64,000 nt of DNA from Candidatus Sulfopaludibacter sp. SbA3. Lineage in GTDB: Bacteria > Acidobacteriota > Terriglobia > Bryobacterales > Bryobacteraceae. Every line of letters starts with the position of its first letter. Positions within the stretch are counted from its first letter, which is position 1. Below are positions 17,559 through 62,287 of this stretch, one piece after another. The stretch lies in the NCBI GenBank assembly GCA_945890485.1, contig CAMDCN010000010.1, forward strand, positions 215,126 through 279,125, in the 5' to 3' direction. The position numbers and the translations under genes were made by a program. The notes below the pieces were generated by a model. The model was not told where the DNA came from and searched no databases. It worked only from the letters and a program-made list of their open reading frames with translations.

Positions 17559-17765
17559 CTAGCACCTCTCTTTGTTCGCCTCCAACCACTGGTCCAGCCA
17601 CTCCCGGCGGACCAGTTTCCTTCGGCCCATCGAGATGTGGCTGAGCCGGGGTATCCCGGGGATCTTCCCGTTGATTACGTTGGCGACGTGCGTCTTCGAA
17701 CATCGGAGGAGGGACGCCACGTCGCGGATGGTGAGTACCGCTTGAGGCTCTGGCGGGTTTTGCAT
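17559..17765 (-). CDS. xis: Excisionase-like helix-turn-helix protein
   Basis: The 68-residue product has an HTH_17/MerR-like fold: VLTIRDVASLLRCSKTHVAN followed by GRRKLVRREWLDQWLEANK. These small proteins direct integrases towards excision. It lies 53 bp upstream of int and 9 bp downstream of the traB-like gene, so transcription of the transfer operon would also express xis and int. Confidence 0.75.
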   Translation of the reverse strand: MQNPPEPQAVLTIRDVASLLRCSKTHVANVINGKIPGIPRLSHISMGRRKLVRREWLDQWLEANKERC

Positions 17766-17774
17766 TTGTGCACC

Positions 17775-18812
17775 TCATAGGTTTACGGCCGAAACATAGG
17801 GGATACCGAACAGACGGGACCATGCTTGGAGGCAGGCCTCCTGCGCGGCGGGGATGTAGGTGTCTTTGGTCCAGGTGGCATTTGAGATTCCGACGATCAG
17901 AGTTGGGCTTTCGAGGGCGGAGTGGACCATGGGCCAGACGAGCAGTTGCTCGTAGCAGATTAGGAGGGCTAGTCGATGTTGACCGACGTTGAGGGTTCCG
18001 GGGCCGGTAAGGTTTAGCGGGACGCCGTCGGCTGGCCCGAATGGCTTCCACATGCCTACTGGGATTGGGATTCGCTGATCGAATCGGTTGGCTGGGCTAG
18101 CGCCGATTAGGAGGACGGAGTTGTTGAATTCGTCGGAGCCGGGGATCGGTCGGCCGGCGCCGATGAGGACGGTCCGTTTAGCGGTCTTCAGTTGATTGAT
18201 GGTGTCGGTCCAGTAGACTTCTGTCGCTTCTGTCCAACGGCGAACCGCGCCCTCCGGGAGAATTGTGAGAGACGCGGTCGAATTGTGGACTGCTTGTCGG
18301 GAGGATTCTTCCTTCAGGAAGGTGTCCCGGGAATCGGCAGTGTTGAGGGCTTTGATCTCCTGCGGTTGGGCTGGAGGAACATATAAGAGGTTGGTGGCGA
18401 GGATTGCGGCAGCGATGGTTTTGGGGTGGACGGGCCAGATCGCTTCGGTGAGTGCGGTTGCAACTAAGCCGGCTAGACCGGTTCCTGGGTAGAGGAGTCC
18501 GGCGGCGGTTAGCGGCGAGGCCCAACCGATAATTCCGATCGGTGGAATCGCCGAGAGGAAGAGGGCTGACGGAATTCGCCAGAAGCGTTGAGCAGAGTCT
18601 TCGTTCCAGAGAACGATCCACGGTGCGGTGAGGACGGCCGATGCGGTGATCAAAAGTCCGAGGCCGGCGGCAGGGTCTTCGGTTATCCATGGGATCGGGG
18701 CGGAGGCAGCGGCGAAATACGTGAATGCGGCGACGGCGGCCCGGGTGCGAGTTCGTTGGCGGAACACGATCCACGGCATGAATGCGGAGAGTGCTATCCA
18801 CGCAGGAGCCAT
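17775..18812 (-). CDS. traB: TraB-like conjugation protein (Lnt/nitrilase type)
   Basis: The 345-residue product has an N-terminal membrane part of several helices (to about 160) and a C-terminal carbon-nitrogen hydrolase domain. The likely active-site glutamate is in LTILPEGAVRR and the cysteine in LALLICYEQ. This is the architecture of apolipoprotein N-acyltransferase and of TraB on Ti plasmids. It overlaps the stop of traF by 19 bp, matching the traF-traB order of Ti plasmids. The function in transfer is not settled. Confidence 0.72.
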   Translation of the reverse strand: MAPAWIALSAFMPWIVFRQRTRTRAAVAAFTYFAAASAPIPWITEDPAAGLGLLITASAVLTAPWIVLWNEDSAQRFWRIPSALFLSAIPPIGIIGWASPLTAAGLLYPGTGLAGLVATALTEAIWPVHPKTIAAAILATNLLYVPPAQPQEIKALNTADSRDTFLKEESSRQAVHNSTASLTILPEGAVRRWTEATEVYWTDTINQLKTAKRTVLIGAGRPIPGSDEFNNSVLLIGASPANRFDQRIPIPVGMWKPFGPADGVPLNLTGPGTLNVGQHRLALLICYEQLLVWPMVHSALESPTLIVGISNATWTKDTYIPAAQEACLQAWSRLFGIPYVSAVNL

Positions 18813-43952: not shown

Positions 43953-44776
43953 CTGAGAGTTGTGCGCGGATGCACCTTTGCAAATCTCGCCTCCGTGCTG
44001 ATGAGTTACCTAGGTAGAAGCCGCAGTGGCCAGCATGGGCATATGCTGACCTCACAGATCGCTTTGCGGTAGTGTCTTGGCAACGGTCGGGAAGGGTTCA
44101 CCATGCTTTTCCGCCGAACGGCGGTTCGTCTGCCGGCGTCTGCCCGGTGAGCACCCTCCTCCGTGCAATGACCAAGAGCGCAATGGCGGAGCGGACGCAC
44201 ACCAACCGGCGGGCGCTGGATCGGTTATCGACCCCGACGAATACGGGGGCACCTCGCACGCGCTTCGAAGGGCGTAGGGGGCGGCGGGCCGGCAGCTTCG
44301 ATTTGAGTTGGTCTGACCCTGGGCGACGGACCCGCAACAGGTTACACGGCCTGGTCTTGGGCATTAGGGAGAGAAGTCCGTGATCTGAGGTGCGGCAGCA
44401 ACGACGAGAAGCCGGAGTGTTGGCTTCGATTTTGGGCGATTCTATCGGAGGGAACTGGGAATTTATGCCACTTGATGCGAAGTGTTGGCGCCGAGAAGTG
44501 GACAATTTCGGTTCGCTCGGCGGCGCGTTGCAGGGGAGGGCGGCCCGTGCCGAGGCAATTGACGCGTGGATCGTTTCCGTGGCCCGACCATCGCGCTTGT
44601 GCAGTAAGCCGGAACCGAGGGGGCGGCAGGCGCTTCGTTCCGACATAATTGAGCTAGTAGGCCGGGATGACCAATGGGACACTGGAGTAGTTCCGAATGA
44701 GGTGTTCTGATGCCCGTAACACTTCATTTTTACAAACTCACTTAATACTTGGAAAAGCTGGTACAATCGCCGGGCA
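43953..44776. other. Long intergenic region without convincing gene
   Basis: About 820 bp carry only arginine-rich, low-likelihood frames on both strands. A TACAAT box at 44762-44767 lies ten bases before the activator's ATG, which would give an almost leaderless transcript. No RNA gene was recognised. It may be decayed DNA between two modules. Confidence 0.4.
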
Positions 44777-46246
44777 ATGAAGGTTTTGATCACGTTTACC
44801 GGTTCGAACGACCCGTATTCGCGTTCACAGGTCCAAGGTGAAGAGCAAGCCGGCCCAGTTTTGTCCCTGGTAGCCGCCCGCGAATTTGATCGCGTGATCC
44901 TCCTCTCCACTCCGAAAATGGCGGGTATCACTGACGAAACGGCCGCGGCTATCACTGGTCCGGCGGTTAGCGTGCGAACCCTCGTACTCCCCGACCCTAC
45001 GGACTACCTCGCCATTCTTCGAGAGCTTCGGCGGGAGTGGAGCGAAATTCGAGAGCAGCACTTCGACGCGGAGTTTTTTGTGGCGACTGCTTCCGGCACT
45101 CCGCAAATGCATGCCTGCTGGTTTCTCTTAACAGCCAGTGGGGAGATTCCTGCCACCCTGCTTCAAGTTCGCCCGCCAAATTACGTTACGAAGGATTTGC
45201 CTGTCGTCACTGAGACAGTCCCGTCGGCTAGCGACTTTCCACGTGTCCTTCCAAACCGTATGGTTGCGGCAGAAGATGACCCGCTCTTCCTTCTTGACTC
45301 CGCACTCGAAAGCGTTGGCCTCGTGGTGCAACATGCTGCGATGCGAAGCGTCGCAGAGAGTGCAGCTCATGTTGCCCCGGTGGCCACCACCGTGCTCCTG
45401 CTGGGCGAAACGGGCACGGGGAAAGAGATGTTCGCCCAACTGATCCACACTTTGAGCAAACGCCGTGGCCGCTTCGTCGCGCTCAACTGCGGAGCGATTC
45501 CCAGCGAGTTGGTGGAGAGCACCCTTTTCGGACACGTGAAGGGCTCCTTTACGGGGGCAGTTAGCAACCAAACAGGGAAGTTTGAGCAAGCTCATGAAGG
45601 AACGCTGCTCCTCGATGAGATTGGCGAATTGCCCTTGACCGCCCAGGTCAAGCTACTCCGAGTGCTGCAGGACCAGACGATCGAACCAATCGGCGCGAAC
45701 GGAAGCCGTAAGGTGGATGTGCGCGTGATCGCCGCGACCAACAGGAATCTGCTCGAAGAGGTCAAAAACAAGCGGTTCCGGGAGGACCTCTACTATCGTC
45801 TCTGCCCGATCACGCTGAAGATCCCACCCCTCCGCGAACGCCGGTCGGAAATTACGCGCATTGCCGTCTATCTGCTGGACCGCCTGAATCGCAATTTTCG
45901 CCGGCAGCGCCGATTTTCGCCGGATGCGTTGCGTCGACTCACGACGTACCCATGGCCCGGAAACGTTCGCCAGATGGAAGGCGCTATTTCCCGGGCGGTA
46001 ATCCTCGCTGCGACGGATCTCATCCATGCCGCCGATCTCGATCTGGCGGAAGTCGAAACCTCGTCTCACCTTCCGCAGCCGCACGAGGGCTTTCAAATGG
46101 ATGCGTTCCTGTCTGAAGCGCGCGAAACTCTCATCGACCAAGCGCTGGAGCTGTCGAACGGAAACCAGAGCCAGGCGGCCAGGTTGCTTGGAACAAGCGC
46201 CCAGAACATCAGCAAGTTCCTCAAAACCCGCTCCAACGGCGGATGA
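44777..46246 (+). CDS. RtcR-like sigma-54 activator with CARF-type N-terminus
   Basis: The 489-residue protein has three parts. Residues 1-150 ([31 protein letters not shown]) match the N-terminal domain of RtcR, a CARF-type fold with a S-G-T-P ligand loop. Residues 175-410 are the AAA+ domain: Walker [15 protein letters not shown], the sigma-54 contact loop GSFTGA, Walker [11 protein letters not shown], arginine-finger region FREDLYYRL. The C-terminus is a Fis-type helix-turn-helix ([20 protein letters not shown]). It stands 126 bp before hsdR. No rtcA or rtcB is present. In family terms it should activate sigma-54 promoters when the N-terminal domain binds its ligand. Confidence 0.85.
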
Positions 46247-46254
46247 AGTCTCTA

Positions 46255-46266
46255 CAACTGGAGTTG
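46255..46266. promoter_or_regulatory. Putative activator binding site (hsdR)
   Basis: CAACTGGAGTTG is a perfect palindrome outside the central two bases. Its centre lies 73 bp upstream of the -12 element at 46333. The same arms recur upstream of yhaO at 52439-52450. Two direct repeats GGGTTGT follow at 46270 and 46283. Confidence 0.55.
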
Positions 46267-46319
46267 AAAGGGTTGTTTGTGTGGGTTGTGCAAGCTGCTC
46301 ATTTTAAATCAGTTAAGCT

Positions 46320-46335
46320 TGGTTCTGGTTTTGCT
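46320..46335 (+). promoter_or_regulatory. Putative sigma-54 promoter of hsdRMS
   Basis: TGGTTCTGGTTTTGCT has the invariant GG and GC ten bases apart, and TTTGC at the -12 element. Transcription would start near 46346, 26 bp before the hsdR ATG. The upstream gene encodes a sigma-54 activator, which supports it. Confidence 0.6.
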
Positions 46336-46371
46336 TTATTCCCCTCCAGACGGGTAGAATAGTCCTTCCTG

Positions 46372-49300
46372 ATGGAATCTCTGAACTTCGAATTCCTCCG
46401 ACCAGAATACTCGGCGCTCGCCGACCTCGGTGCCTACGCCGAGACCTATGTGTATTCTGATCCGTCGAGTGCGGGGGTCAAATTGCGCGCGTTCGCCGAA
46501 CTCCTGACCGGCGCCATCTACGAGAAATTCAAGTTGCAGCGTCCGCTGGAGGAGGAATTCGTAAAGCTCCTAACGGCTGCGGTTTTCAAGAGTGCCGTGC
46601 CCGCCGCCATCCTGAATCCGCTGCACGCGATGAGAAAAGAGGGGAATCAGGCCGCCCACGGTAGTCCACTCTCACCGGAGACGGCGCTTTACCTGCTGGA
46701 GCAGGCATTCAAACTCGCCCAGTGGTGGTCGGTCCAAGCCCTTGCCGCCGATCCTGCAACGCTTCCCACCTTCAAACAACCGCTGAAACCGGCGCAAGCT
46801 GCCGCGGCCAAACCCTCCGAGGAGGAGAAGGCCAAGCTTGCCGCGCAAGAAAAGGAACTGGACGAAAAGGTCAAAGCTCTCGAAGAACTGCAGCGGAAGT
46901 ATGACCAGGTTTTGCAGCAAGCGGAGCAACTCGCCGCCATTCAGGCCGCCGGGCAACAGACCGCCAACCTGCTCCACATTAGCGAGGAGGAGACCCGGCA
47001 ACGGCTGATCGATCGTGATTTGGCGAAATCGGGTTGGAAGGTGGGTTACAAGGGCGCGAACTCGAACGAGGTAACCCAGGAACACACCCTTAACAACGGC
47101 ACCCGCGCGGACTATGTTCTCTGGGATGACAACGGAAAGCCTCTCGCCGTGGTGGAGGCGAAGCGGACGTCCCGCGACCCCGAAGCAGGCCGGAAGCAGG
47201 CCGCGAGTTATGCGGATCAACTGGAAGCTCAGCACGGCCAGCGGCCGGTTATCTTCACCGCGAACGGGCACGACATCGTCCTCTGGGACGACGCGCAAGG
47301 TTATCCTCCCCGCCCGATCTATGGGTTCTACTCGAAGGACAGTTTGCAGTATCTGGTGTACCAGCGGGGAGCTAAGAAACCGCTCGCTGATATCACGGTC
47401 GATCCCGCGATCACGAACCGGCTCTATCAAATTGAGGCCATTCGCCGTGTTTCGGAGAAATTCACCGCCAGGCATCGAAAGGCTCTGCTCGTTCAGGCCA
47501 CCGGCACCGGCAAAACCCGCGTCGCCATCTCTGTCACCGACGTTCTCATGCGCGCCGGCTGGGTGAAGCGCGTGCTATTCCTTTGTGATCGCACGGAATT
47601 GCGCAAGCAGGCGAAAAACGCCTTCAGTGACTTCCTCAAAGAGCCCCTCACCATCCTCGACTCCGGTACTCAGCACGACCGGAATGCCCGCATCTACCTG
47701 GCTACCTATCCGGCTCTCGACAAGTTCTTCCAGAACTTCGATCCCGGCTTTTTCGATCTCGTGATCGCCGATGAATCGCACCGGAGCGTCTATAACCACT
47801 ACCGCGATCTCTTTCGCTACTTCGACTGCCTCCAGGTGGGCCTCACTGCCACTCCTGTCCAGTTCATCGCACGGAACAGCTTCCAGCTTTTCGATTGCGG
47901 CAACCAGGACCCTACCTTTAACTACGACCTCGATGAAGCCGTCGAGCAGCATTATCTGGTCCCGCACGAGGTGGCGACCCACACGACACGCTTCCTTCGG
48001 GAAGGCATCAAGTACACGCAGTTGACCGAGGAGCAGCGGCGCCAGCTTGAAGAGGACGGCGAAGACCCCACCACCTTCGACTATGACGCCGAGAGCATTG
48101 ACAAGCAGATCTTCAACAAAGACACCAACCGCGTCATTCTTCGCAACCTAATGGAGAATGGCATTCGCGACGCCACTGGCCAGCGAATCGGCAAGACAAT
48201 CATCTTCGCCAGGGGCCACAATCACGCGGTGCTGCTGCACGAACTCTTCGACGAGATGTATCCGCAATATGGCGGCAAGTTCTGCGCCGTCATCGACAAC
48301 CAGATCGATGCCCGCGAACAACTGATCGACGACTTCAAGAACTCCAATCACGACCTGACCATCGCCATCTCAGTGGACATGCTCGACACCGGAATTGACG
48401 TTCCGGAGATCGTCAATCTTGTCTTCGCCAAGCCGGTTCGCTCGCGCGTAAAGTTCTGGCAGATGATCGGCCGCGGCACGCGCCTGTGCAAAGACCTCTT
48501 CGGCGCAGGTGTGGACAAGACAAAGTTCCGCATTTTCGATCACTGGGGCAATTTCGAATATTTCGACCAGCCCCGTCCGGAGGTGCAGCCGGCACAGCCG
48601 AAGTCCTTGCTCCAGCGCCTGTTCGAAGCCAGGATCGAGCTCGCGGAAACGGCGCTGGCCAATGCCCAGCCGGAGACTTTTGCCATCGCCAGGGACTTGA
48701 TTGCCGCCCAGATTGCCACGTTGCCGGCCGAAGCCGTTTCTGTTCGCGAGAAATGGCGCGAAGTGCAAACTGTCTCGCATCCCGACGCCCTGAATCAGTT
48801 CTCGAATGAAACAGTAGCGACCCTTCGCCGCGATGTCGCGCCTCTCATGCAGTGGATCGACATCGCTGGTTCCCGCGATGCCTATGAACTGGACTTGTTG
48901 CTCGCTCGAACAGAGACGGAGTTGGCGAAAGGCTCCATGAAGGTAGCCGATCTGCAGGCTGCTCTGATCGACCGGCTCAGCGATCTCAAAATGAACCTCA
49001 ACCCGGTCAGGGAGCGCACTGCGGCGATTCAGCAGGCCCGTTCCCCTCAATTCTGGCAATCTGTGACGGTGCCTGCGCTGGAGACGCTGCGCACGGAACT
49101 CCGCGGGATCATGCAGTACCGTCAATGGGACCCACGCACCGGGCAACCGAGAATCACCGATATTGCCGAGGAGCTTGATGGAATCCAGACCGGCGAACAC
49201 AGAGGCGTCTCGGCCAGCAACAATATGGCTGTTTACCGGGAACGGGTGCTCTCTACTCTGCGGCACCTCTTCACGCATGATGCGACTCTGCAAAAGGTCA

Positions 49301-49731
49301 GGCGCGGCGAACCAGTCCAGCCTGCGGATCTGGAAGCGTTGGTCTCTCTGGTGCTCACCCAGAATCCGACCGTCGATCTCCGGACGCTGCGGGAGTTCTA
49401 CCCGGCAACCGCCGGGAGTCTGGAGGACCTGATTCGCAGCATCGTTGGCATGGAACCAGAGGCCGTCGACGGTCGCTTCGCTGCGTTCGCCGGCAAGTAT
49501 CCGTTAAGTGCTACCCAGACCCAGTTTCTTGCCATGTTGAAGCGCGAAATCGCCGAACATGGCGCCATTGCCATAGACCGTCTCTACGACTCGCCCTTTA
49601 CTGCCGTTCACAGCGACGGACTGGATGGCGTATTCGGCGACGAACGACAGATTCAGGAATTGCTGCAGATCGTCCGCACGTTTGAGCCGCAACCCGCTGG
49701 CTCCGCGGACGCAACAAGTCAAACCATATGA
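46372..49731 (+). CDS. hsdR: Type I restriction enzyme R subunit
   Basis: The 1119-residue protein has an N-terminal DUF4145-like domain (residues 20-130, ending near [20 protein letters not shown]), a coiled coil (about 145-195), the nuclease motif [19 protein letters not shown] (PD-(D/E)xK), a helicase core with Walker [23 protein letters not shown] and GLTATP, motif [11 protein letters not shown], and an EcoEI-type C-terminal domain. It cuts and translocates DNA with HsdM and HsdS. The stop overlaps hsdM by 4 bp. Confidence 0.93.
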
Positions 49732-51236
49732 TCACAGGTGACCTTCGCAACAAAATCGACAAGCTCTGGGAGGAGTTCTGGACTGGCGGCATCGCCAATC
49801 CACTGCAGGTGATTGAACAAATCACCTTCCTGCTCTTCGCCCGCATGCTCGATATGACAGAATCGCGCAACGAAAAGCGCGCCGCCCGCACGGGAAAGCC
49901 CGTCGCCAATCCCATCTTCTCGCCAGAGGACCAGGAGCTTCGCTGGTCGAATTTCAAGAATCTGGCGGCCCCCTTGCTGCTGCCCTTGGTGCGTGACCGT
50001 GCATTTCCGCACTTTCGTGAGCTCGGCGGCCAGGGGAGTCGATTCGCCGAGTATATGAAGGACGCGCAGTTGATGGTGCAGAAACCGAGTCTGCTGGTTT
50101 CCGCCATCAACATGATTGACGCCTTGCCACTCGAACGCACCGACATCAAGGGGGACCTCTACGAATACCTTCTGAGCAAGCTGAGCCAGGCCGGGGTGAA
50201 TGGCCAGTTCCGCACGCCGCGCCACATCATTCGCTTCATGGTCGAGTTGCTCGATCCGAACGCGGATGAGACCGTTGCCGATCCGTCCTGTGGCACGGCT
50301 GGCTTCCTAGTAGGCGCCGCGGAATACCTGCTCGAAAAGTACACCTCGCCAGCGGGCGTGGTGGTGGAAGAGGGCCAGAAGATTTTCTCAGGCGATCTCT
50401 TCACTGACGCCAACCGCCAGCACCGGCAGCGCGGCATGTTTCAGGGCTTCGATTTCGACGTCACGATGCTCCGCATTGCGGCCATGAATCTGGTTCTGCA
50501 CGGGATTGACGAGCCGGATATCCATTATCAGGACACCCTCAGCACCACCTTCCCGGATCGCTTCCGGGCGCTGTCGCAGGATGCATTTGATGTGGTTCTC
50601 GCCAATCCCCCCTTCAAAGGAAGTCTAGATTACAGTGATGTGCAGCCTGCGCTTCTGGCGCGGGTGAAAACGAAGAAAACGGAACTCCTCTTCGTGGCAC
50701 TGATATTGAGAATGCTGCGTCTCGGTGGCCGTTCCGCCACCATCGTCCCGGATGGGGTGCTCTTTGGCTCCAGCAATGCCCACCAGGCCCTTCGCAAGAT
50801 GCTGATTGAGGAGAACCAGTTGGATGCGGTAATCTCTTTGCCTTCGGGCGTATTTAGGCCCTACGCAGGCGTCTCAACCGCGATTCTGGTCTTCACGAAG
50901 GGCGGCCGAACGAACGAAGTGTTCTTCTATGACGTTCAAGCGGACGGCTTCTCGCTCGACGACAAACGGGATCCTGTTGCAGCGAACGACCTGCCTGACG
51001 CACTGCTGCGATGGAAGCAACGAGACCCTCGCAAGGATACAGACCGAACAGGCAAAGCGTTCTTTGTCTCAGGGAAGGAGATCGCCGACAACAAGTTTGA
51101 TCTGTCGCTGAATCGTTACAAGGAGACGGTGCACGCGGAAGAGCGGCATGACCCGCCCAAGGAAATTCTGGAGCGGATGAAGGCCCTGGAGAGGGAAATC
51201 CAGAAGGAGCTAGGAGAGTTGGAGGCGATGCTGTGA
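49728..51236 (+). CDS. hsdM: Type I restriction-modification methyltransferase
   Basis: The 502-residue protein has the HsdM N-terminal helical domain ([17 protein letters not shown]), SAM motif [20 protein letters not shown], and catalytic motif [12 protein letters not shown] for N6-adenine methylation. It overlaps hsdR and hsdS by 4 bp each, so the subunits are made together. Confidence 0.94.
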
Positions 51237-52423
51237 GCGGTGTTTTACTAAGTGAAGTTGCATCGATAAATCCTGTCGATCGAGTCGAATGTGATGCCGA
51301 AAAGAAGGTCAGCTTCCTGCCAATGTCGGCAGTTTCTGCTTCGGGACTTTTTACTCCCGAGGTTCGTCGTTACGCAGAGGTAGCGAAGGGTTTCACTCAA
51401 TTCAGAGTGGGCGATGTGCTCATCGCGAAAATCACGCCATGCTTTGAGAATGGAAAGGCTGCGTTTATCAATCGCCTGCCCTTTCCAATTGGGTTTGGCT
51501 CAACGGAATTTCACGTAGTAAGGCCAAGTCCTGCAATTCATGGTCCGTACTTGTATCGATTCGTCACGACGCAGCAATTTCGACGAAAAGGTGCTCAGCG
51601 TATGACTGGCAGCGCAGGGCAGCAGCGAGTTCCTTCAGAATTTCTTCGGCAGCTAGTCATCCCACTTCCGCCGCTCGAAGAGCAGAAGCGAATCGCCGCG
51701 ATACTGGACAATGCGGACGCAATCCGACGAAAGCGCGAGCAGGCTATCGAACTCGCCGACGAATTCCTGCGCTCGCTCTTCCTCGACATGTTCGGCGACC
51801 CGGTGACCAATCCGAAGGGCTGGCCAACCTATCAACTTTGTGAACTCCTCTCTGGAATCGAAAGTGGGTGGAGCCCAACTTGCGCCGATCGCCATGCCGA
51901 GAATAGTGAGTGGGGAGTATTAAAGTTGGGAGCCGTTACTAGCTGCGTTTTCAAGCCCGAGGAAAACAAAGCTCTACTGCCCGGAACATCCCCAAGGCCG
52001 AAAATCGAAGTTCGTGATGGCGACGTTCTCTTCGCACGCAAAAATACCTATGAACTCGTGGCTGCATGCGCACTGGCAGTTGATCCGCCGCCTCGACTGA
52101 TGATGTCTGATTTGATCTTCCGGCTGAAAATTAGTGAGGCACAGTTAGTCTTGCCCGAGTATCTCTGGCAAGCACTCGTCCAGCCTTCGCTGAGAGGCCG
52201 GATTCAAAAGCTTGCAGGTGGCTCTGCTGGGTCGATGCCAAATATTTCGAAAGAACGCCTCCTTGGCGCTGTTCTGCCTGTGCCACCAATGGACCAGCAA
52301 AGAGAATTCGTGTTGAGGTTGCGAAAGGTCCAATCGATCAAGAACTACATTGCTGAGCATCATGCGGAAGCCCAGTACGCCAGTTCTGCTCTCGCTGCAC
52401 GGGCGTTCTCAGGTGGGCTGTGA
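51233..52423 (+). CDS. hsdS: Type I restriction specificity subunit
   Basis: GTG 51233 overlaps the hsdM stop. The 396-residue protein has two target recognition domains (about 1-135 and 195-345), each ending in a conserved helix: [20 protein letters not shown] and [18 protein letters not shown]. The first TRD is short at its N-terminus (starting [11 protein letters not shown]) but seems complete. The target sequence cannot be predicted here. Confidence 0.9.
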
Positions 52424-52438
52424 CGCCAAAGTAATGTT

Positions 52439-52470
52439 CAACTATAGTTGGTGGCGCTGAAACTCAAGTT
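52439..52470. promoter_or_regulatory. Putative activator binding sites (yhaO), two copies
   Basis: CAACTATAGTTG at 52439-52450 has the same arms as the site before hsdR. A second, shorter copy, AACTCAAGTT, lies at 52461-52470, with centres 21 bp apart (two helical turns). The first centre is about 96 bp upstream of the -12 element at 52540. Confidence 0.55.
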
Positions 52471-52526
52471 GCGTTTCTGAGCTCGGCAAAGAGGCTGACG
52501 AACAATGAAATCTGCAACTTAGCTTT

Positions 52527-52542
52527 TGGTACGGAACATGCA
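52527..52542 (+). promoter_or_regulatory. Putative sigma-54 promoter of yhaON
   Basis: TGGTACGGAACATGCA differs from the consensus TGGCACG-N4-TTGCA at only two positions and keeps the GG-N10-GC spacing. Transcription would start near 52553, only four bases before the ATG at 52557, so the message would be nearly leaderless; this is a point against it. Confidence 0.6.
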
Positions 52543-52556
52543 CTAATGAGAAGAGC

Positions 52557-53759
52557 ATGTTCAAGTTCATCCACGCAGCCGACATTCACATCGACAGTCC
52601 ATTGCGCGGGCTGGCAACTTTTGAGGGCGCTCCCGTTGAGCGAATTCGATCCGCCACCCGCGAAGCCTTCCGCAATCTCGTTCAGCTTGCCGTCGCAGAA
52701 CAAGTCGCCTTCGTCCTGATCGCTGGCGATCTCTGGGATGGTGATTGGCCCGACTCCGCACCGGGGCTATTCTTCATCCAACAAGCTGCCCGGCTCGGTA
52801 AGGCTGGCATTCCGATCTTTGTCATTAAGGGGAATCACGATGCCGAGAGCAAGGTGACGAGCGCCATCCGCCATTGGCCCGAGAACGTGACGTTCTTCAA
52901 CCACAAGAAGGCGCACACGATACATCTGGAAAAATGGAACGTGGCGATCCATGGTCAGAGCTATGGCGAGCCGCAGGTCACGCAGGATCTTTCGGAAGAG
53001 TTTCCGGCTCCCGTGGCAGGTGCTTTCAACATCGGGCTTCTCCACACCTGCCTGGAGGACGGCACTACAACTTATGCTCCGGCCCGCATCGACAGATTGG
53101 CCGCGCATGGGTATGAGTATTGGGCGCTCGGGCACATCCACCAGCGCTGCGACTTCAGCCGCAATGGTGTTCACATCGCATTTCCCGGTAACTCGCAGGG
53201 AAGGTCGATTCGAGAGACAGGCGCCAAGGGATGCTCCCTGGTGACCGTGAAAGACGACCATACGGTGACTTCGCAGTTTCACGCGCTCGACGTTGTTCGC
53301 TGGCAGGAACTCTCTGTCGTTACCGACGACGCAGGGCTCGAACTCGACGTCCGCGAAGCGCTGGAACGCGCCGTCGCGAAGAGCGATGGTCGACTGCTTG
53401 CCGTGCGCCTCCAGGTGAAAGGCTTCGTTGCTGGTGGCCAGGCTCTACGGGACCGTCTTGATGCGGTTGCCATAGAAGTTGGGGACGTTTGGTTGGAAAA
53501 AATCCTAGTCATTCCACCAGCCCGCGACAGCGAATCGCCAACGGGCCATGCCCTGCCGTCACCAGTAGCAGAGGAGATCCAAAGGTTGATCGCGCTGCTG
53601 CAGGAGGATGATCCTGTCGTATCGGAATGGATGGCTGGTTTCGTCGAATTGCGCTGGCGGTTGCAAGGGGAACTCGAGGAGTCCGAGGCGGCGGTGGCAT
53701 TGAGCGCTAAGCAGGCATTTCGAAGCCTGGTAGCGAAGGTCGGAGGACAACTGTCGTGA
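52557..53759 (+). CDS. yhaO: YhaO/SbcD-like metallophosphoesterase
   Basis: The 400-residue product has the Mre11-type nuclease motifs in order: HAADIHID, IAGDLWDGDW, IKGNHDAE, LLHTC and LGHIHQR. These bind two metal ions. The C-terminal capping region matches YhaO in length. It overlaps the next gene by 4 bp, the standard nuclease and ATPase pairing. Confidence 0.88.
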   Translation: MFKFIHAADIHIDSPLRGLATFEGAPVERIRSATREAFRNLVQLAVAEQVAFVLIAGDLWDGDWPDSAPGLFFIQQAARLGKAGIPIFVIKGNHDAESKVTSAIRHWPENVTFFNHKKAHTIHLEKWNVAIHGQSYGEPQVTQDLSEEFPAPVAGAFNIGLLHTCLEDGTTTYAPARIDRLAAHGYEYWALGHIHQRCDFSRNGVHIAFPGNSQGRSIRETGAKGCSLVTVKDDHTVTSQFHALDVVRWQELSVVTDDAGLELDVREALERAVAKSDGRLLAVRLQVKGFVAGGQALRDRLDAVAIEVGDVWLEKILVIPPARDSESPTGHALPSPVAEEIQRLIALLQEDDPVVSEWMAGFVELRWRLQGELEESEAAVALSAKQAFRSLVAKVGGQLS

Positions 53760-56700
53760 GATTCATTCAAATGAACCTTCGGGCCTACGGCCCGTTCACA
53801 AACAAAGTAATCGAGTTCGGCGCCGTGGCGGCTGCTGGATCTCCCGGGCTTCACATCGTACTCGGTGCCAACGAAACCGGCAAGAGCACGGCTCTGCGGG
53901 CTCTGCGCGCTGTACTGTTCGGCATGACCGACATGAATGATGCGCACCTTCATCCCAAGGATATGTTGCGGGTGGGGCTCAAGGTGGAGACTGCGGACGG
54001 CGAAATCTTAAGTGTGGAGCGCCGCAAAGGGAGGGGCGCCAAGAGCCTGCTGTTTGTTGGCTCGGAAAAGGCGGTGCCGGTGGAGGAATGGGCGCGAGTG
54101 CTGCCGGTGGACAGCGCGGAGCTGTTCGAGCAGATGTTCGCGCTGAACTACGATCGGCTGCTGCATGGCGGAAAGCAGCTTGCCGAGTTCAGGAACGACA
54201 TCGGTCAGGCCCTCCTGGCGGCGGCGGGCGACCTCGGGAAAACAGTGACTTGTCTGCAGGAGATGATGGTCCGCGCGGAAACGATCTACAGCCCGAGGGC
54301 GACGTCGTCTCAGTTGAGGCAGGCATTGGCCGCTTATCAGGCGGCCGACAAAGCGGTTCGCGAGGAACGTTTCACCTCTCGCGAGTACAAAGCTTCTGTG
54401 ACTCGACGGGATGAGTTGGAGGAAGAACTGATACAGATCGGCTCTGACCGAATTCGCTACACCGAGGAGCTAAACAGGCTCACCCGCATACAAACGGCGG
54501 CGCCCCATGTACGCAGGCTAATCGAGGATGAGAACGCACTGGAGGCCTTCGCCAACAGCGTTCTCTTGCCTGCGGATTTCGAGCAGCGCTTTAACGACGC
54601 CCTGGCCGGGTTGAAGAGTGGCGAAGGGCGGCGCTATGAGGCAACATCCGAGTTGGATCGGTGGAACCACGAACTCGCCGCCATCCCCCGCGATCCGGTT
54701 TTGGCGGGGCTGGTTCCGGAGATCGATCGCTGGAAGGATTTATCAGGCAAGATTCTGGCTGCGCGAATTGACTATCCCAAACGTGAAGCTGAGTGGAAGA
54801 GCTTGTGCATTGCCCGAGAATCTCTGTGCGCGCGGCTTGGCATCTCGGCCGAGGCCACTCCGCGTTTGCTCGTCGAGCAGCGCAAACGCATTGAATCGTT
54901 GGCTGGGCAGAAGCTTGTACTTGACTCGAAGCTGGCAGATCTGCCGAACCGAATCTCCAACCTCGAGGTGAACCTTTCCGAAGGGGAAGCTATCTTCCAG
55001 ACACTTCCAGCCGGAGTCGACACGACCGCATTGGCCGACCTACTAGCGCAGGTGCGCGCGAGGAAGCAGCCGGAACGCGAAGCGAAGCGTCTGCGAACCG
55101 AACGGGACGATTTCGCCGGTCGACTGCGGCGCGATATCGAGGCAATTCCTATGTGGAGTGGCACTGCGGAAGAGTTGGAGACATTGCGCGTACCATTGAA
55201 CGCTTCCGTGGCGGACTTCACTGATCGGTTCGTTCGGCATCAAACTCGGTCCCAGCAGTTGACGGACGATCACCGCACCCTGACCGCTGGGGTTGAGGAC
55301 TGTGCCAGGAAGTTGGATCAGCTAGAACAACAGCAGTTGATACCAACGGAGTCTGAACTGCTCGATGCGCGTGCACAGCGCGATCTCGGCTGGACTGCCA
55401 TCAAAGACCGTTGGATGAATGGGTTGGTAGACGGCGCGGCCGAGGCCACTTTCCTCGCGGGCTCCGCAAAGCCCTTGCCGGAAGCCTATGAACAGGCGGT
55501 GGTAAGTGCGGATTCTTTGGCGGATCGGCTGCGCCTTGAGGCAGACCGCGTGGAACAGAAGCGGAGTGCGGTATTGGCGCTGGAATTGGCAAAGCAACGA
55601 CTCGCGGCCAACGCTGAGATCATCGAGCGCCACCAGAGCGAGTTCGTAAACCTTGAATCTGAATGGAAAGCCATCTGGTTAGACACACACATCACTCCTC
55701 GAACCCCGAAGGAGATGCAGGCCTGGTTGGAGAAGCGCAACAGCCTCGTCGGGCAGCTTCGAGATCTGAACCGGCTGAGTGCTCAGGTGATGGAAGCAGA
55801 AGCCGAAGTGAAGCGTTGGCAGGAATTGTTGCGTGCGGCACTGGGCGAGAGTGCGCAGCGGGACCTGGCAGACTTGGTGAATCGAGCAGAGGCCCGCGTG
55901 CGTGAGGCGGTAGAGAATCGCAAGGGGCGCGTTGAGGTTTCCGGAAGGATTCGCCAGCTCAAGTCAAACCTGGAAACGGCGCGAGGCGAGCAGCGCCGAA
56001 ATACAGCCGACCTGGATGGATGGCGGGCCTCATGGGCGGAAGCTGTGATTGGACTGCCTGTTAGCAGCGGCGCTGATCCCGCGGCGGCGCAGGAGGTGGT
56101 CAAGATCATCGATGAGGTGCACACCAAGTCTGAGGAAATGGCCGGACTGCAGTACCGTATCGAGGCCATGAAGAGAGATGAATCCGAGTACGTCGAGGCG
56201 GTTCGTGGGCTTGCCGTATCTGCTGGGCGGCACGATTTGGTCGAAGCCGATGCCTTGATCGTCATTAGCGAACTGCAGAAGTTGGCGCGGGCCGCTCAGG
56301 AGAACGAAGCGAAGGCTGCGAGTATCAGCGAAAGCCTGGCCCGGGAAAAACGAAAACAAGAGGAGGCGCAAGGGGTCATCGCACGACAGGAAGCGACCTT
56401 GGAAGAACTTCGGAACGAAGCCCAGGCGCCGACCGTGAGCTCTTTGCCGGAAGTGATTCGATCCAGTAAGGCCCGCCTTCAGCTGCAGGGCAAAATCACG
56501 GAGCACCGAGCCGCTCTGGCAGACTCATGCGGCAATATTGGGCTGGACGCGTTTATCGCGCAGGTCCAGTCCGCAGATTTGGACCTCCTGCCAACTGAGC
56601 TCCAGCAAATTCGCGATGAGCTCAGTGCGCTGGAGGATTCAAAAGCAAAGTGCGTGAGCGAGAGGGACGGCATCGACCGGGAGTTCCATTTGCGTGAGGC

Positions 56701-57295
56701 TGCTACCGCATTGAGCGAGGCGGCATGCCGGAAGTTCTCAGCCGCCGCCAGGATCGATGCCCTTGCGATGGAGTATCTCGAACTGCAGATCGGCGCGACA
56801 CTATTGACGAAAGCCATTGCGCTTTACCGGGAAAAGAACCAGGATCCGCTGCTGAAGCTCGCGGGTGATTATTTCTCCACCCTGACCTGCGGAGCGTTCT
56901 CGGCGCTTGTCATCGATGACGAGGAAGATCAGCGATCCCTTCGAGGCGTTCGCTCCTCAAACGGAGCCCATCTCGATCTGAGGGGGATGAGCGACGGGAC
57001 GCGAGACCAACTCTTCCTCGCCCTTCGCCTCGCCTACATCGAAACGCAGTGCGACAAAGAAATGCCATGCCCGCTGATTCTGGATGATGTCCTGATGGCC
57101 TTCGACGACGCTCGTACCGCCGCGGCACTTCGCGCTCTGCGAGACCTGTCTCGAAAGACTCAGGTTCTGGTCTTTACTCATCACGCACATCAGGCGGCCA
57201 TCGTAGAGCAGACCTTGGCGCCGAGCGACTACCGGTTGCACATTCTCGCACCAGCCGCCGCGAACGCCCTGCCAATCCAAGGCGCACGGGCTTGA
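53756..57295 (+). CDS. yhaN: YhaN/SbcC-like SMC-type ATPase
   Basis: GTG 53756 overlaps the yhaO stop. The 1179-residue protein has Walker A GANETGKSTALRAL near residue 40, a long coiled-coil middle, the signature LRGMSDGTRDQLFLALRLAY near 1080, and Walker B PLILDDVLMAFDD. I see no CxxC zinc hook in the middle, so it belongs to the hookless YhaN type rather than classical Rad50/SbcC. With YhaO it should form an end-processing nuclease. Confidence 0.88.
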   Translation: MRFIQMNLRAYGPFTNKVIEFGAVAAAGSPGLHIVLGANETGKSTALRALRAVLFGMTDMNDAHLHPKDMLRVGLKVETADGEILSVERRKGRGAKSLLFVGSEKAVPVEEWARVLPVDSAELFEQMFALNYDRLLHGGKQLAEFRNDIGQALLAAAGDLGKTVTCLQEMMVRAETIYSPRATSSQLRQALAAYQAADKAVREERFTSREYKASVTRRDELEEELIQIGSDRIRYTEELNRLTRIQTAAPHVRRLIEDENALEAFANSVLLPADFEQRFNDALAGLKSGEGRRYEATSELDRWNHELAAIPRDPVLAGLVPEIDRWKDLSGKILAARIDYPKREAEWKSLCIARESLCARLGISAEATPRLLVEQRKRIESLAGQKLVLDSKLADLPNRISNLEVNLSEGEAIFQTLPAGVDTTALADLLAQVRARKQPEREAKRLRTERDDFAGRLRRDIEAIPMWSGTAEELETLRVPLNASVADFTDRFVRHQTRSQQLTDDHRTLTAGVEDCARKLDQLEQQQLIPTESELLDARAQRDLGWTAIKDRWMNGLVDGAAEATFLAGSAKPLPEAYEQAVVSADSLADRLRLEADRVEQKRSAVLALELAKQRLAANAEIIERHQSEFVNLESEWKAIWLDTHITPRTPKEMQAWLEKRNSLVGQLRDLNRLSAQVMEAEAEVKRWQELLRAALGESAQRDLADLVNRAEARVREAVENRKGRVEVSGRIRQLKSNLETARGEQRRNTADLDGWRASWAEAVIGLPVSSGADPAAAQEVVKIIDEVHTKSEEMAGLQYRIEAMKRDESEYVEAVRGLAVSAGRHDLVEADALIVISELQKLARAAQENEAKAASISESLAREKRKQEEAQGVIARQEATLEELRNEAQAPTVSSLPEVIRSSKARLQLQGKITEHRAALADSCGNIGLDAFIAQVQSADLDLLPTELQQIRDELSALEDSKAKCVSERDGIDREFHLREAATALSEAACRKFSAAARIDALAMEYLELQIGATLLTKAIALYREKNQDPLLKLAGDYFSTLTCGAFSALVIDDEEDQRSLRGVRSSNGAHLDLRGMSDGTRDQLFLALRLAYIETQCDKEMPCPLILDDVLMAFDDARTAAALRALRDLSRKTQVLVFTHHAHQAAIVEQTLAPSDYRLHILAPAAANALPIQGARA

Positions 57296-58229
57296 CACAC
57301 GTCGTTCCTACGATTCGACCAGCGCGATGCCCATCAATCGCCGAGCGGGAGTCTCCTTGGCAATCCGGTGTGCATGAGGCCATTCGGCGCGTCGTCGTTT
57401 GGCTGAAGCCGAAGCTGGCCGCGCCGCGGGAGGAGGATCTGTCGAAGGGAATCTTTGAGGCTTGCATAGACCGCCATTCATTTCCAACCCGACCGCCTCG
57501 TTCAGAGGATCGAACTGGAAGGCCGCTTCTGGCTCTACGATTTCCGGCGCGTGGTACGCGAAGCTTAGCGTTGCTTAGTTTCGTTTGACCAAGGATGCGG
57601 ACGGGCTGGGCGGGCAGGCATTGCCTCGTCGTTGTGCTGCGCGATGCGATTGGCTTCGACGTTTGGCAAGAATACCCCAGGAAGCCACTGCTGTCCGCTC
57701 ACTTTTCGGCTACTCTGGGATTCCCATTCTCCTGGCTGTCGTTGCCAACGCCTGAGGGTGAGAAAGGAAACTTGACTTAGTGTGCCAATGATGGCGCAGT
57801 GAAGGTTGTTCGATCGATTCCGAAAGTTGTAGGCTTTTTCTATGAGACGCCGCGAGGGACACAGCCCGTACGGCAGCGGATCCTTGGACCTTCGGCTGCC
57901 GACCGGCGAACGGTTGTGCGTGGACAACGGCCAACACATGCTGCGAGGCGTAAGAGACTAGCCGGTAAATGGTACTGGGCGGGCGGAAAAAACCCGTTTG
58001 CTGCCGAAGCAGCCCCAGTTGATCGCCTTGCTAAGTCTTTTCCTTCCGGCTTAACTAAGACCTATCTTCGAGTTTACCGCTCTAGCGAGACGAGTGGTGT
58101 GCATCACTGCGGGTTGGAATTCAGAGCGGAACCCAGTCAGAATACGGTGAGGCCATTTGGCCCGATGGCCTCAGTGGCCCCGCCTTTCGGAACGCCTTAA
58201 GCGTCGTGGGTTGGTTTCCCGCCGTCGCA
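57296..58229. other. Decayed intergenic region with gene fragments
   Basis: About 930 bp hold no intact gene. A frame at 57385-57470 reads HEAIRRVVVWLKPKLAAPRE and a second frame at 57470-57568 reads LVQRIELEGRFWLYDFRRVV before a stop; together they look like one gene broken by a frameshift. A dyad GAGGCCA/TGGCCTC at 58149-58172 lies beyond the S41 stop and may weakly terminate it. Confidence 0.4.
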
Positions 58230-59456
58230 TCACACTATCGAAAGCGCTCGGTTCAACTGGGTGTCAATTCCTGCAGACAGGTCCTCTGGGCTGAGCACTT
58301 CAGACTCGTCGGGCTTCACGCCCCGCCCTTCAAGCTTCGTGCCATGCCAAGTGTAGTATGCACCGACTGGCAGAACCACTCGGTAGTGATGCCCTACCTT
58401 GAAAGAAGAAGCGGCAACGAGTTTGCCTGGTGTCTTCACTCCAACGAGCTGTGCCAACTTGTACTCTGAAGCGAAGCTGGCGACCATTTCTGTTGCACTC
58501 GCGGAGTGTTCGTTGATAAGCAGAACCACACGGCCGTGATGCCGCGCGGATCCAAGTCCCTCCGAAAACAAGGCGACGGACCGGCCTTGTATGCCGAACT
58601 TGGCAACCAGAGGAAGGATCCCCCACTTGCTTGCCGGGATCTTGTCGAAGGCCGGGAGGCTGTCCCTGGATGTGGCCGCCTCGATCTGCCGCCTTCCCAG
58701 GTTGTATCCGACTCCGCGCTTGTCGGCACAAAGGAAGCTCATGAGACGAAGGCATCCAATCCCGCCGCCTGTATTTCCCCGAAGGTCGATCACAAGCCGA
58801 TCCGCCGCCAAAGAGGAGATCGCCGCGCTGATGTCACGCGCTACGTCGATTCCGAGCATGCCCGGAAACATGCTGACGCGCAAATAGCCGATTCCACCAT
58901 TGAGCTTGCGGCTGGTGACAACTTGGTCCGGGATGATGAGCGGTCTTTTCTTGCTTTGGGATGCTGGCACAGAGATGGTGACGGCAATAGCATCTTCGTT
59001 GTGTCTCCGGTAAACGGCCCGATGGTCTGCGCCGAGAGCAAAGACCGGCGGGGCTGGTGGCACAACCTCTGCGCCATTTAGGGTGAGCAGTACATCGCCC
59101 GGCCGTATGCCAGCATTTGCGGCCAGCCCGCCGGGATGGACGTCCTGAAACATCCAGCGGAGGCCTTCATTCGTCTCCGCCTGCATGAAGGTGGCGGCTA
59201 TCGCGATCCGGCCCGGGCTTCGCGGGCGATCCCCATGAAAAAACCCAATGTGACTAGTCCCCAACTGCTGCAAGAGCGAATTGATCCGCCGCTCGAACTC
59301 CTCGCTGTCGGCCGCCCGGATGATCTCCTCGGTGGCGGCGGCCGATACAGTAGCCCAGTCCACGCCGTTCATGGCGGGATCGGCAAACTTGCTTGCAGTG
59401 GTTGCCACGACGGACGCGAGTATCTTCCGCCGTTGGGATTCGTTGAGCACTGGCAT
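58230..59456 (-). CDS. S41-family protease with PDZ domain
   Basis: The 408-residue product has a helical N-terminus (1-75), a PDZ domain (about 95-165, GGLAANAGIRPGDVLLTLNG), and the S41 catalytic core: IDLRGNTGGG, nucleophile region LINEHSASATEMVASFA and the lysine in GVKTPGKLVA. No signal peptide is visible, so it may stay in the cytoplasm, unusual for this family. Its ATG overlaps the CHAT stop (TGATG), so both are made together. Confidence 0.85.
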   Translation of the reverse strand: MPVLNESQRRKILASVVATTASKFADPAMNGVDWATVSAAATEEIIRAADSEEFERRINSLLQQLGTSHIGFFHGDRPRSPGRIAIAATFMQAETNEGLRWMFQDVHPGGLAANAGIRPGDVLLTLNGAEVVPPAPPVFALGADHRAVYRRHNEDAIAVTISVPASQSKKRPLIIPDQVVTSRKLNGGIGYLRVSMFPGMLGIDVARDISAAISSLAADRLVIDLRGNTGGGIGCLRLMSFLCADKRGVGYNLGRRQIEAATSRDSLPAFDKIPASKWGILPLVAKFGIQGRSVALFSEGLGSARHHGRVVLLINEHSASATEMVASFASEYKLAQLVGVKTPGKLVAASSFKVGHHYRVVLPVGAYYTWHGTKLEGRGVKPDESEVLSPEDLSAGIDTQLNRALSIV

Positions 59457-62065
59457 CAGTCAGTCTCCTGCTTCTTTGCCATCACGGATTCGGAACCTTC
59501 GCCAAACAGGAGGAACCCACTCCAGAGCTTAGGTGTCGCCGACTTGCCAAACTTCCGAATCAGGGCAAGCTTCGCTTCCTGGAGGGCCACCACCTTTGGC
59601 TTACCGATTGCGAGTTCTCGATAGAACTCCGTCATCAGGGCAAGGCTGAAGGAGTCGTCGGCTGTCCAAAGATTGGCGACAACCGCGCGCGCCCCTGACG
59701 CGAGAAAAGGCCGGACGAGACTGGAAACGCCATCCTGACCGAAGAGCCTGCCGGTGCCAGTGTTGCACGCCGACAGCGTCACGAGCGACGCGCGAAGATC
59801 CAGATTCAGAATCTCACGCGCCTGCAGGAATCCGTCCTCCTGTCCGCCTGGCCGGAGTGCGAGTGCCGAGCGCTCCGGGAATGTGCTGCTCAGCAGCCCA
59901 TGCGTGGCGAAATGCGTAACGGCGAAATTCTTTAAAGGCAGCTTCTTGAGTGCCGACTCCGTTGACTCGGCCCCCGTCAAGAGGCGGTTGGCCGGTGAAG
60001 TCATCGTCTCGACTGCCATCTGCGCCTCCGCCTTCGCGGCTGGCAGGCTTGGCAGCGCGGCGCCGTCAATATCGTAGACACCGCGGCCAACCTTGCCAAA
60101 TTCCGCGGCGCCTTGTCCAGGTTGCGCATCAGGAGACGCGGCGACGGCGAGGACGGCGTTCTGTGCTGCGGGTTGAGGCCGCCGCCGGATCAGGTAGAGC
60201 GCAGTGGCGGAAGGCGAGTAGCCGACCGCGTGCGATTCGAGAAGACGTTTGGTGGCCGGTGTCGTCAGGGCCTCGAAAGGGAGACGATTCAAATCGCCGT
60301 CGGGGACGATGATCACGCGCTTCTTCGTTTCGAGCCCTGGGATGCGGAGCAGCTCGTTGAGCGGCGAGGTCGGCGAAAGCTCGTTTCCAGCTTGAATCGC
60401 TGTCCAGGCGTCGGCGACCTGCTTCTTCAGGGCCGTCCGTGCGGGGAGCTTCACAATACTCGAACTCTCCCGTGTGCTCACAATGACGAGCGAGGCCGGA
60501 TCGTCGACCACGTACTCGAGCAGAATTTCGTCGCTCGCCAAGGATTGCCGAACGCTGCCAAGCCGCGGGATTGATCGCGCGCTGGCAGACTGGCGTCGTC
60601 GATTCGACTGAGCGGAGACGGCCACCATGTCAGCTTCCGCACGTAGAATCTGCGTCAGAATCCGATTTCGCGCAGCTGTTCCCGTGGCCGTCCAAAGCTG
60701 GGCCTGTAGGGCGGAGATTCGTCGATCTCCGGCTTGTGCCGCTGCGGATCTGGACTTTTCCCCTAAGCCGCGCCCCATCATGAGGTCGGTCACCGCTCTT
60801 CCTCGAGCCTGCTCCACAATGGCGAAGATGCGGTCAGGGCCGGCGGCGGCCTTCACTTCCAGTCGGATTCGCGCGAGGAATACTTCGTCCATGATTCCGA
60901 CGAGGCGCGATTTCACCCACGGACTCCAAACGCCGGCGAGGAGGCCCTCGGTGATCTCACTGGCCTCCTCCAGCAGTTTCCTCGCCTCGGACAGCCGGCC
61001 TTGGGATAGCTCGCTCTCGGCAAATTTCGCGAGGAGACGAGGGGAGACGAGTCTCTCGCGCATCGTCCGCGCGGCCGTGACGCCTGCGCTGAACGAGTTC
61101 GCGGCGTCGGACTTTCGGCCGAGCGCGAGTTGAAGGCGGCCGAGGTCGAGGTAGATCTCCGCCAGTATCCGGTTTGCACCCGCGCGGCGGGCGAATTCGA
61201 GGGCTTCCAGCAGCTTTGTAATCGCTTCGTTTCGCAATCCGGCGGCTTCGTCCAGGTGGGAATGCTCGCGAAGTAGTTCGGCGATGTAGCCGAGCCCATC
61301 CCGCTTGCGGGCGACGTCCAAGGTGACCGCCAGAAGTTCTCGCGCCTCCTTTGTCCGACTCAGTTTGACGAGTGCGCCAACTTTTCCGAGATTCGCCATC
61401 GCGGAGAATCGCAGCTCATCTACGCTGCTACCGGCGGCGATCGCTTGGTCGAAAAACATCAGGCCTTGTTCGGGTCTCCCAAATTGAACCAGGCCGTTGC
61501 CTAGAATGCTGAGAAAGCGGACCACGGATGCCAGATCGCCCTGCGCCTTCGCGGTCTGGATAGCGCTGCCGATGGTGAACATGGCCTCGCTCGCTCTCCC
61601 CTGCAGCCCCGCGACGATTCCGAGTTCGCCATTCGCCCGGTTCACCCACTTGGCGTCACTCAGCCGCTTCGCGATTTCCAGCGCCTCCCGCCAAGCCTGT
61701 TCGGCCAACAGCGCGTCGTAGTCCTCGTCGGTCTCGCCCTTGATGATCAGGCAGCGCAGACGGATTCTGTCGTCACTCTTTGCGAGTGGCGATTCCAGGA
61801 TCTCCCCGAGCTGTTGGGAGACTTCGGCGACGGAACGGCGGGGAAGTTCACCGCGGATGCGCCCTAATCGGGCCCAAAGAGCATTCCGGGCATCGCCGGC
61901 TTGTTCGAATTCCTTCTCGGCCTGGATGAAGAATGGTTCTGCGCGCGTCCAAGCTCGAAGTTCTGCCAAGCGGTCAGCTTCCGCCAAGGCATTCGTAGGA
62001 GGAGTATCCTGCCCCCAACACGAAATAGAGAGAATCGTCACTGCAATGCGCGAACAAACACGCAT
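59456..62065 (-). CDS. TPR-CHAT caspase-like protein
   Basis: ATG 62065 is chosen for GGAGGA six bases upstream. The 869-residue product begins MRVCSRIAVTILSISCWGQ, an export signal with a possible lipid cysteine. About 500 residues of TPR-like helices follow (residues 20-450). The C-terminal CHAT domain has the catalytic histidine in VTHFATHGLLSS and the cysteine in LVTLSACNTGTGR, then SGARAVVANLWTADD. CHAT proteins are caspase-like proteases activated through their repeats. It is coupled to an S41 protease. Confidence 0.88.
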   Translation of the reverse strand: MRVCSRIAVTILSISCWGQDTPPTNALAEADRLAELRAWTRAEPFFIQAEKEFEQAGDARNALWARLGRIRGELPRRSVAEVSQQLGEILESPLAKSDDRIRLRCLIIKGETDEDYDALLAEQAWREALEIAKRLSDAKWVNRANGELGIVAGLQGRASEAMFTIGSAIQTAKAQGDLASVVRFLSILGNGLVQFGRPEQGLMFFDQAIAAGSSVDELRFSAMANLGKVGALVKLSRTKEARELLAVTLDVARKRDGLGYIAELLREHSHLDEAAGLRNEAITKLLEALEFARRAGANRILAEIYLDLGRLQLALGRKSDAANSFSAGVTAARTMRERLVSPRLLAKFAESELSQGRLSEARKLLEEASEITEGLLAGVWSPWVKSRLVGIMDEVFLARIRLEVKAAAGPDRIFAIVEQARGRAVTDLMMGRGLGEKSRSAAAQAGDRRISALQAQLWTATGTAARNRILTQILRAEADMVAVSAQSNRRRQSASARSIPRLGSVRQSLASDEILLEYVVDDPASLVIVSTRESSSIVKLPARTALKKQVADAWTAIQAGNELSPTSPLNELLRIPGLETKKRVIIVPDGDLNRLPFEALTTPATKRLLESHAVGYSPSATALYLIRRRPQPAAQNAVLAVAASPDAQPGQGAAEFGKVGRGVYDIDGAALPSLPAAKAEAQMAVETMTSPANRLLTGAESTESALKKLPLKNFAVTHFATHGLLSSTFPERSALALRPGGQEDGFLQAREILNLDLRASLVTLSACNTGTGRLFGQDGVSSLVRPFLASGARAVVANLWTADDSFSLALMTEFYRELAIGKPKVVALQEAKLALIRKFGKSATPKLWSGFLLFGEGSESVMAKKQETD

Positions 62066-62287
62066 ATCGTTCCTCCGCACGGCATCCGCCGCGTTTCTTG
62101 ACGATGCCCCAGAATTGCCTTCTTGTCAAGAGTAGTGCAGTAAATCCGGCAACATCCCTACGGTGCCGAAGTCCCTTTTTCCCGCCCTTGGGGGCGGCGC
62201 GGTTAGCAAAAACAGTCTTCCACATTTCAACAGCGTTTCACCCACCGGCTACTGGTTTCTTCTAAAGGTTCTACAGGATAAAGATGG

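Follow-up and report, generated by a model that had tools for sequence, protein, structure and literature searches.

How can a cell survive when a restriction enzyme, its R gene first, is switched on just in an emergency? The question is posed by a block of six genes in the window, the stretch of 64,000 nucleotides analysed here, in which a CARF-type sigma-54 activator precedes a type I restriction operon and an Mre11/Rad50-like pair. The same palindrome and a sigma-54-type promoter stand before both operons, and for this reason the activator is predicted to co-induce them. We put the probability at roughly 70% that the block is an inducible defence regulon, in which the activator would start hsdRMS and yhaON together on a signal of infection or damage.

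The open reading frame listing with its translations gives six intact co-directional genes at 44777-57295, all on the plus strand. The first (44777-46246, 489 aa) encodes a CARF-AAA-HTH sigma-54 activator of the RtcR_PspF2 type, identified by Pfam, PADLOC and predicted fold. It is followed by the type I restriction subunit gene hsdR (46372-49731; PADLOC REase_I, 918.5 bits), the methylase subunit gene hsdM (49728-51236; MTase_I, 597.6 bits) and the specificity subunit gene hsdS (51233-52423; Specificity_I, 224.4 bits), and then by a yhaO-like (Mre11-like) gene for a calcineurin-type phosphoesterase (52557-53759) and a yhaN-like (Rad50-like) gene for an AAA_27 ATPase (53756-57295), these five also being recognised by Pfam. 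The families and the single strand are those named in the sequence-only reading, and the ORFs, Pfam and PADLOC agree with it, PADLOC giving no match for the YhaO-like protein. HsdR, HsdM and HsdS are each above the Pfam cut-off, which together places them in a type I restriction-modification (R-M) system; HsdR and HsdM do not reach the NCBIfam hsdR and hsdM cut-offs. The YhaO-like protein lies below the SbcD cut-off (TIGR00619; 52.0 bits, cut-off 77.65). Membership in MADS was rejected, as HsdM scores 121.6 bits against a MAD2 cut-off of 720 bits. The overlaps hsdR/hsdM, hsdM/hsdS and yhaO/yhaN are 4 bp each, and the intergenic gaps measure 125 bp before hsdR (46247-46371) and 133 bp before yhaO (52424-52556), so that the genes 3' of the activator probably form two transcription units. 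Scans of 44600-57700 for sigma-70 promoters (3 versus 3.2) and terminators (12 versus 13.7) were at chance and give no evidence for or against an internal promoter of hsdM.

The activator consists of a CARF domain (about residues 1-140), a sigma-54 interaction domain (183-347) and a Fis-type HTH (452-475). It matches the PADLOC model RtcR_PspF2 CARF_AAA_HTH (PDLC01995) with 437.9 bits over residues 1-484 (model positions 1-477 of 481) and the Pfam RtcR family with 34.4 bits (cut-off 23.1). The RtcR_PspF names reportedly go back to a CARF classification paper of 2020. The Sigma54_activat domain scores 224.2 bits (Pfam), the translation contains a Walker A motif GETGTGKE and a GSFTGA loop of the GAFTGA type, and the HTH scores 27.1 bits against HTH_8 (cut-off 22); the three motifs had been called intact from the letters alone, correctly. 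An RpoN domain is encoded in the same genome (195.5 bits). Within residues 1-140 the Pfam RtcR, Pfam Csm6-CARF and PADLOC CARF models all find matches (one covering 1-138, another 3-140). We also ran the structure prediction that had been called for: an AlphaFold2 model of residues 1-175, with 55 homologues in the alignment, has a mean pLDDT of 89.4, and all 37 PDB matches listed at E<=0.001 are CARF-type proteins (Csm6, Csx1, Cam1, Can2, Card1, a ring nuclease and Cdn1). By family models and predicted fold, then, the N-terminus is a CARF domain with the Rossmann-like fold of that superfamily, as had been proposed.

When the two gaps are compared side by side, each contains the palindrome CAACTNNAGTTG 5' of a sigma-54-like element. 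The operator consensus is TTCAACYNNRGTTGAA, a 16-bp site with 14 defined positions, and the sigma-54 consensus was taken as quoted in PMC2725144. Before hsdR, a predicted operator TACAACTGGAGTTGAA (46253-46268; motif scans and matrix) precedes a predicted sigma-54-type promoter TTGGTTCTGGTTTTGCT (46319-46335, plus strand; motif scans). A candidate distal operator, CAACGGCGGATG, overlaps the final bases of the activator gene (46234-46245); it is degenerate and weak and was recognised by eye, and relatives have a distal copy there too. Before yhaO, motif scans predict two operator copies, the distal TTCAACTATAGTTGGT (52437-52452) and the proximal TGAAACTCAAGTTGCG (52458-52473), and a sigma-54-type promoter TTGGTACGGAACATGCA (52526-52542, plus strand), at operator-promoter distances of 89 and 68 bp. 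From these promoters the hsdR and yhaO transcripts would be expected to begin at about 46346 and 52553.

In the 7.1-Mb genome to which the window belongs, there are exactly two places where operator and promoter are combined in this way, one in front of hsdR and the other in front of yhaO, against none in the control. Taken by itself, the palindrome is about as frequent there as chance would have it (9 sites versus 7 for the reversed pattern), and a scan of the window for the bare sigma-54 consensus carries little information (41 matches versus 29.4 expected). We built an operator matrix from 24 distinct sites of relatives and compared the window with 40 simulated windows, whose best sites had a mean of 12.4 and a maximum of 19.4 bits. 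The hsdR operator is the window's best site, at 19.6 bits. The yhaO operator is weaker and comes third at 13.2 bits, so that the matrix alone is indecisive for yhaO. Under a loose composite test 5 of 334 overlapping pieces of the window pass, four of them covering the two cassettes and one lying on the minus strand within yhaN.

Since the shared palindrome was noticed post hoc, it was tested on relatives. Scanning genome contigs with the CARF alignment gave 56 loci, six of which were left out of the count (in five, fewer than 250 bp follow the activator; the sixth has no activator match). We defined a composite as at least 10 of the 14 positions of TTCAACYNNRGTTGAA followed by a sigma-54 element after 62-70 or 86-95 bp, thresholds that were set after the motif had been seen. 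It occurs after the activator in 35/50 loci and in none of the same 50 stretches reversed, compared with 14 of 1476 other 760-bp pieces of these loci; the loci are related, so these counts are not independent events. Stricter thresholds applied to 59 sequences gave 35 matches versus 0 reversed. The distance from operator start to promoter start is 89-93 bp in 25 of the 32 relatives with a good site, and inspection by eye shows that many relatives have a second operator, some 21-22 bp upstream of the first and overlapping the activator gene's end. Cassette-positive loci come from many phyla. At these thresholds fifteen of the 50 lack a composite, including four (L039, L044, L049 and L053) whose HsdR belongs to the window's own subfamily, the closest. 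Across 399 genomes of the class the pattern was found at 16 places in 12 genomes versus 6 control places, which indicates that many of these matches are chance; four of the 16 are accounted for by the window's block and by two further genomes, G132 and G028. The activator itself is patchy, being present in 6/101 relatives (one weak) and 11/399 class genomes (four weak). A divergent acidobacterial branch of the activator (L141, L142 and L144) stands before an ARPP-1 family gene and has an operator variant at similar distances. Near another acidobacterial activator (L067), composites lie at 4045 (minus strand) and 9587 (plus strand); one reads away from the activator toward helicase-type genes and the other is further downstream.

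From these observations a mechanism may be proposed. A signal of infection or damage, possibly an RNA end or a nucleotide, would bind the CARF domain, which may keep the AAA domain silent until then. This is what is reported for E. coli RtcR, in which the CARF domain represses the AAA domain and its removal leads to constitutive activity (PMC9650030). The activator would then assemble on the palindromic operators before hsdRMS and yhaON, and both sigma-54 promoters would fire. HsdRMS, made R first, would cut unmodified DNA, and YhaON would process the ends. The sequence-only reading had the activator switch on restriction and end-processing together, and this gains support insofar as each operon has a predicted operator of the family type and a sigma-54 promoter.

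The association with restriction is recurrent. Hsd homologues lie downstream of the activator on the same strand in 32 of the 50 loci, so the co-occurrence of activator and hsdRMS that was to be tested is frequent in other genomes. When only loci with at least 3 kb downstream of the activator are considered (n=37), 26 have Hsd genes, and hsdR comes first in all 26. HsdR relatives at E<=1e-100 are found in 11 of the 399 class genomes, the window among them. In the ten others hsdM and hsdS lie upstream of hsdR (M-S-R) six times and hsdR is followed by hsdM twice, two being undetermined; their flanks (up to 1.5 kb) contain no activator, and no cassette was found at the nine activator-free relatives with upstream sequence. 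Other activator neighbours are an AAA_15 ATPase matching the NsnB/AriA models and a CARF-PDDEXK protein. In G028 (L108, 1-17823) an RtcR_PspF2-type activator lies upstream of a full Hma set (HmaA, HmaB and HmaC, all scoring more than 1000 bits) and a dynamin-like GTPase. Some 14 kb downstream, a further operator/sigma-54 composite precedes an ORF that is truncated where the contig stops.

The block is probably the cargo of an integrative conjugative element. A tRNA-Gly at 16182 is followed by a tyrosine integrase gene (16408-18051) and by conjugation genes up to 41668, encoding a coupling protein, ArdC, a relaxase and relatives of VirB4, 6, 8, 9, 10 and 11. The genes expected of such an element are thus all present, namely an integrase beside a tRNA, a relaxase, a coupling protein and type IV secretion genes. 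As to flanking attachment repeats, none was found: no stretch of 12 bases or more of the tRNA region recurs in the window, whose end is also that of the contig. The probable element (16182-41668) carries an anti-restriction gene, that for ArdC, together with the adjacent restriction block. Beyond the block, an S41 peptidase with a PDZ domain and a TPR-CHAT protein are encoded at 58230-62080 on the minus strand.

Both the R-first order and the location next to the conjugation genes hint that restriction is held at a low level in resting cells. If R were switched on before M while the chromosome is unmodified, the cell could die, and this counts against the inducible-regulon reading. It may also be turned into a reading of its own, which we put forward tentatively and consider rather unlikely: a portable cassette of activator, tandem TTCAACYNNRGTTGAA operators and sigma-54 promoter would front unrelated defence systems across phyla and recruit operons by operator acquisition, and its type I form would be a conditional suicide weapon. 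In that form transcription would begin with R and nothing of the R-M set would be expressed at rest, so the chromosome would be unmethylated when the alarm rings; induction would cut phage and host DNA alike, with YhaON processing the ends. If this were true, the mobile element could enter unmethylated hosts without killing them.

How far yhaON belongs to the regulon can be judged from other genomes. In the 56 activator loci YhaN has no match and YhaO a single weak one. YhaO relatives occur in 36/399 class genomes (E<=1e-20) and 17/237 family genomes (E<=1e-60), and 5 of 42 YhaO loci pass the loose upstream test. Two of these five, in the window and in G132, have an operator with 11-12 of 14 positions and a second copy; the three others reach 9 of 14 and were counted as chance. 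With a convincing cassette at 2/42 YhaO loci, yhaON as a standard or general partner of the activator has to be given up; in the loci covered, it appears to have joined the regulon on a single branch. G132, a member of another genus, was found by the pattern alone. There the tandem cassette has an hsdS tail on one side (Methylase_S 25.7 bits, cut-off 22) and a yhaO-yhaN pair on the other (751 and 1840 bits), and its operators stand 88 and 68 bp from the promoter, versus 89 and 68 bp in the window. Neither an activator nor a close HsdR was found in the G132 assembly, where the contig breaks off inside hsdS, some 0.6 kb before the cassette. In both G132 and the window, transcription of yhaO is predicted to start about 4 bases 5' of the ATG, which would make the mRNA nearly leaderless. 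From the C of the -12 element to the ATG there are 15 bases in both yhaO cassettes (window 52526-52557; L109 about 9625-9660).

The activator might control hsdRMS only, yhaON being an ordinary DNA-repair pair that is a chance neighbour in a mobile element. The absence of YhaON from the other activator loci, the 40 of 42 YhaO loci that have no convincing cassette and the third rank of the yhaO operator in the matrix scan all fit such a view. We nevertheless think it unlikely in view of the two operator copies and sigma-54 element in the gap before yhaO, the absence of the composite from the genome outside this block, and the recurrence of nearly the same spacing in G132.

The inducible-regulon reading leaves room for more than one ligand. 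The CARF domain may answer a cyclic oligonucleotide that a Cas10-like enzyme of the same genome would produce, instead of RNA ends, with the wiring unchanged. Its best fold matches are Csm6 and Cam1, which bind cyclic oligoadenylates, and a Cas10-like palm protein of 450 aa, with a GGDD motif, is encoded in the genome, but the Pfam family concerned also matches an E. coli control and is thus not specific. This protein (L158:1126-2475, minus strand, on contig C8 of the genome), a possible source of a cyclic-nucleotide ligand as judged from its sequence, shows no type III genes around it in the ORF listing, and 19 kb of sequence contain no CRISPR array. CARF domains typically have a basic residue just after strand 4; in the alignment the activator has none there, and the stretch is conserved across the family; RtcR families are described as mostly lacking it (PMC4012209). 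Cyclic oligoadenylates are also reported to fail to activate E. coli RtcR (PMC9650030). These points argue against a cyclic oligonucleotide, and we regard this variant as improbable. That a different sigma-54 activator of the cell uses both promoters, the RtcR-like gene being a mere neighbour, is very unlikely: the genome does have 19 further matches to sigma-54 activator parts (one with an internal stop), but the cassette lies directly after this family's genes in 35/50 loci from many phyla and is near chance elsewhere in the class genomes.

The combination had been thought undescribed, and this does not stand for one half of it. RtcR-like proteins were linked to R-M systems in 2014, when sensing of 2',3'-cyclic-phosphate RNA or phage nucleotides was also suggested (PMC4012209). 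The association of the RtcR_PspF2 family with restriction has thus been in print since then and is not new. What appears to be new is the wiring, that is, a predicted operator and sigma-54 promoter at a near-fixed distance and a second operon, yhaON, that shares both. In the literature searched, including the relevant portions of PMC4641369, PMC2725144 and PMC3224663, neither an operator for these RtcR-like regulators nor an Mre11/Rad50-like operon controlled by such a regulator is described. With a conserved operator at an almost constant spacing from a sigma-54 promoter, the regulon can be read from the sequence and put to a direct test, and an Mre11/Rad50-like pair would have become part of a CARF/sigma-54 regulon.

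Of the systems already known, the RtcR_PspF2 regulators with restriction (PMC4012209) are shared in the family at full length, the R-M neighbourhood and, as proposed there, a ligand-gated sigma-54 logic; the passages on them name no operator or promoter, whereas here both are predicted and yhaON shares them. RtcR of E. coli and Salmonella, the regulator of rtcBA, has the CARF-AAA-HTH architecture and the sigma-54 dependence in common with our activator. Identity with RtcR proper (NF038308) was rejected, however, the activator scoring 334 bits against an equivalog cut-off of 650 and having no rtcBA linkage. No rtc genes lie in the block, as had been stated of its RNA repair genes, and no RtcB was found in the genome (97% complete). 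The upstream region of E. coli rtcBA does not have the block's operator (best 9 of 14, overlapping the rtcBA promoter). A predicted sigma-54 element upstream of a type I system has been described in Xylella (PMC3224663). In the RtcR-CoCoNuT superoperons, which include HsdRMS and for which binding to an upstream activating sequence has been proposed, an RtcR homologue likewise lies upstream of co-directional restriction genes (PMC11090510). CoCoNuT systems are built on McrB-type GTPases and HEPN nucleases (PMC11090510), whereas in our block yhaON takes the second place and none of the Pfam and PADLOC models matched by the six proteins is a HEPN domain. With YhaO-YhaN and SbcCD-type pairs the block shares a phosphoesterase and a long coiled-coil AAA ATPase encoded by overlapping genes, and it differs from them in that a type I operon and then a predicted operator/sigma-54 cassette precede its pair.
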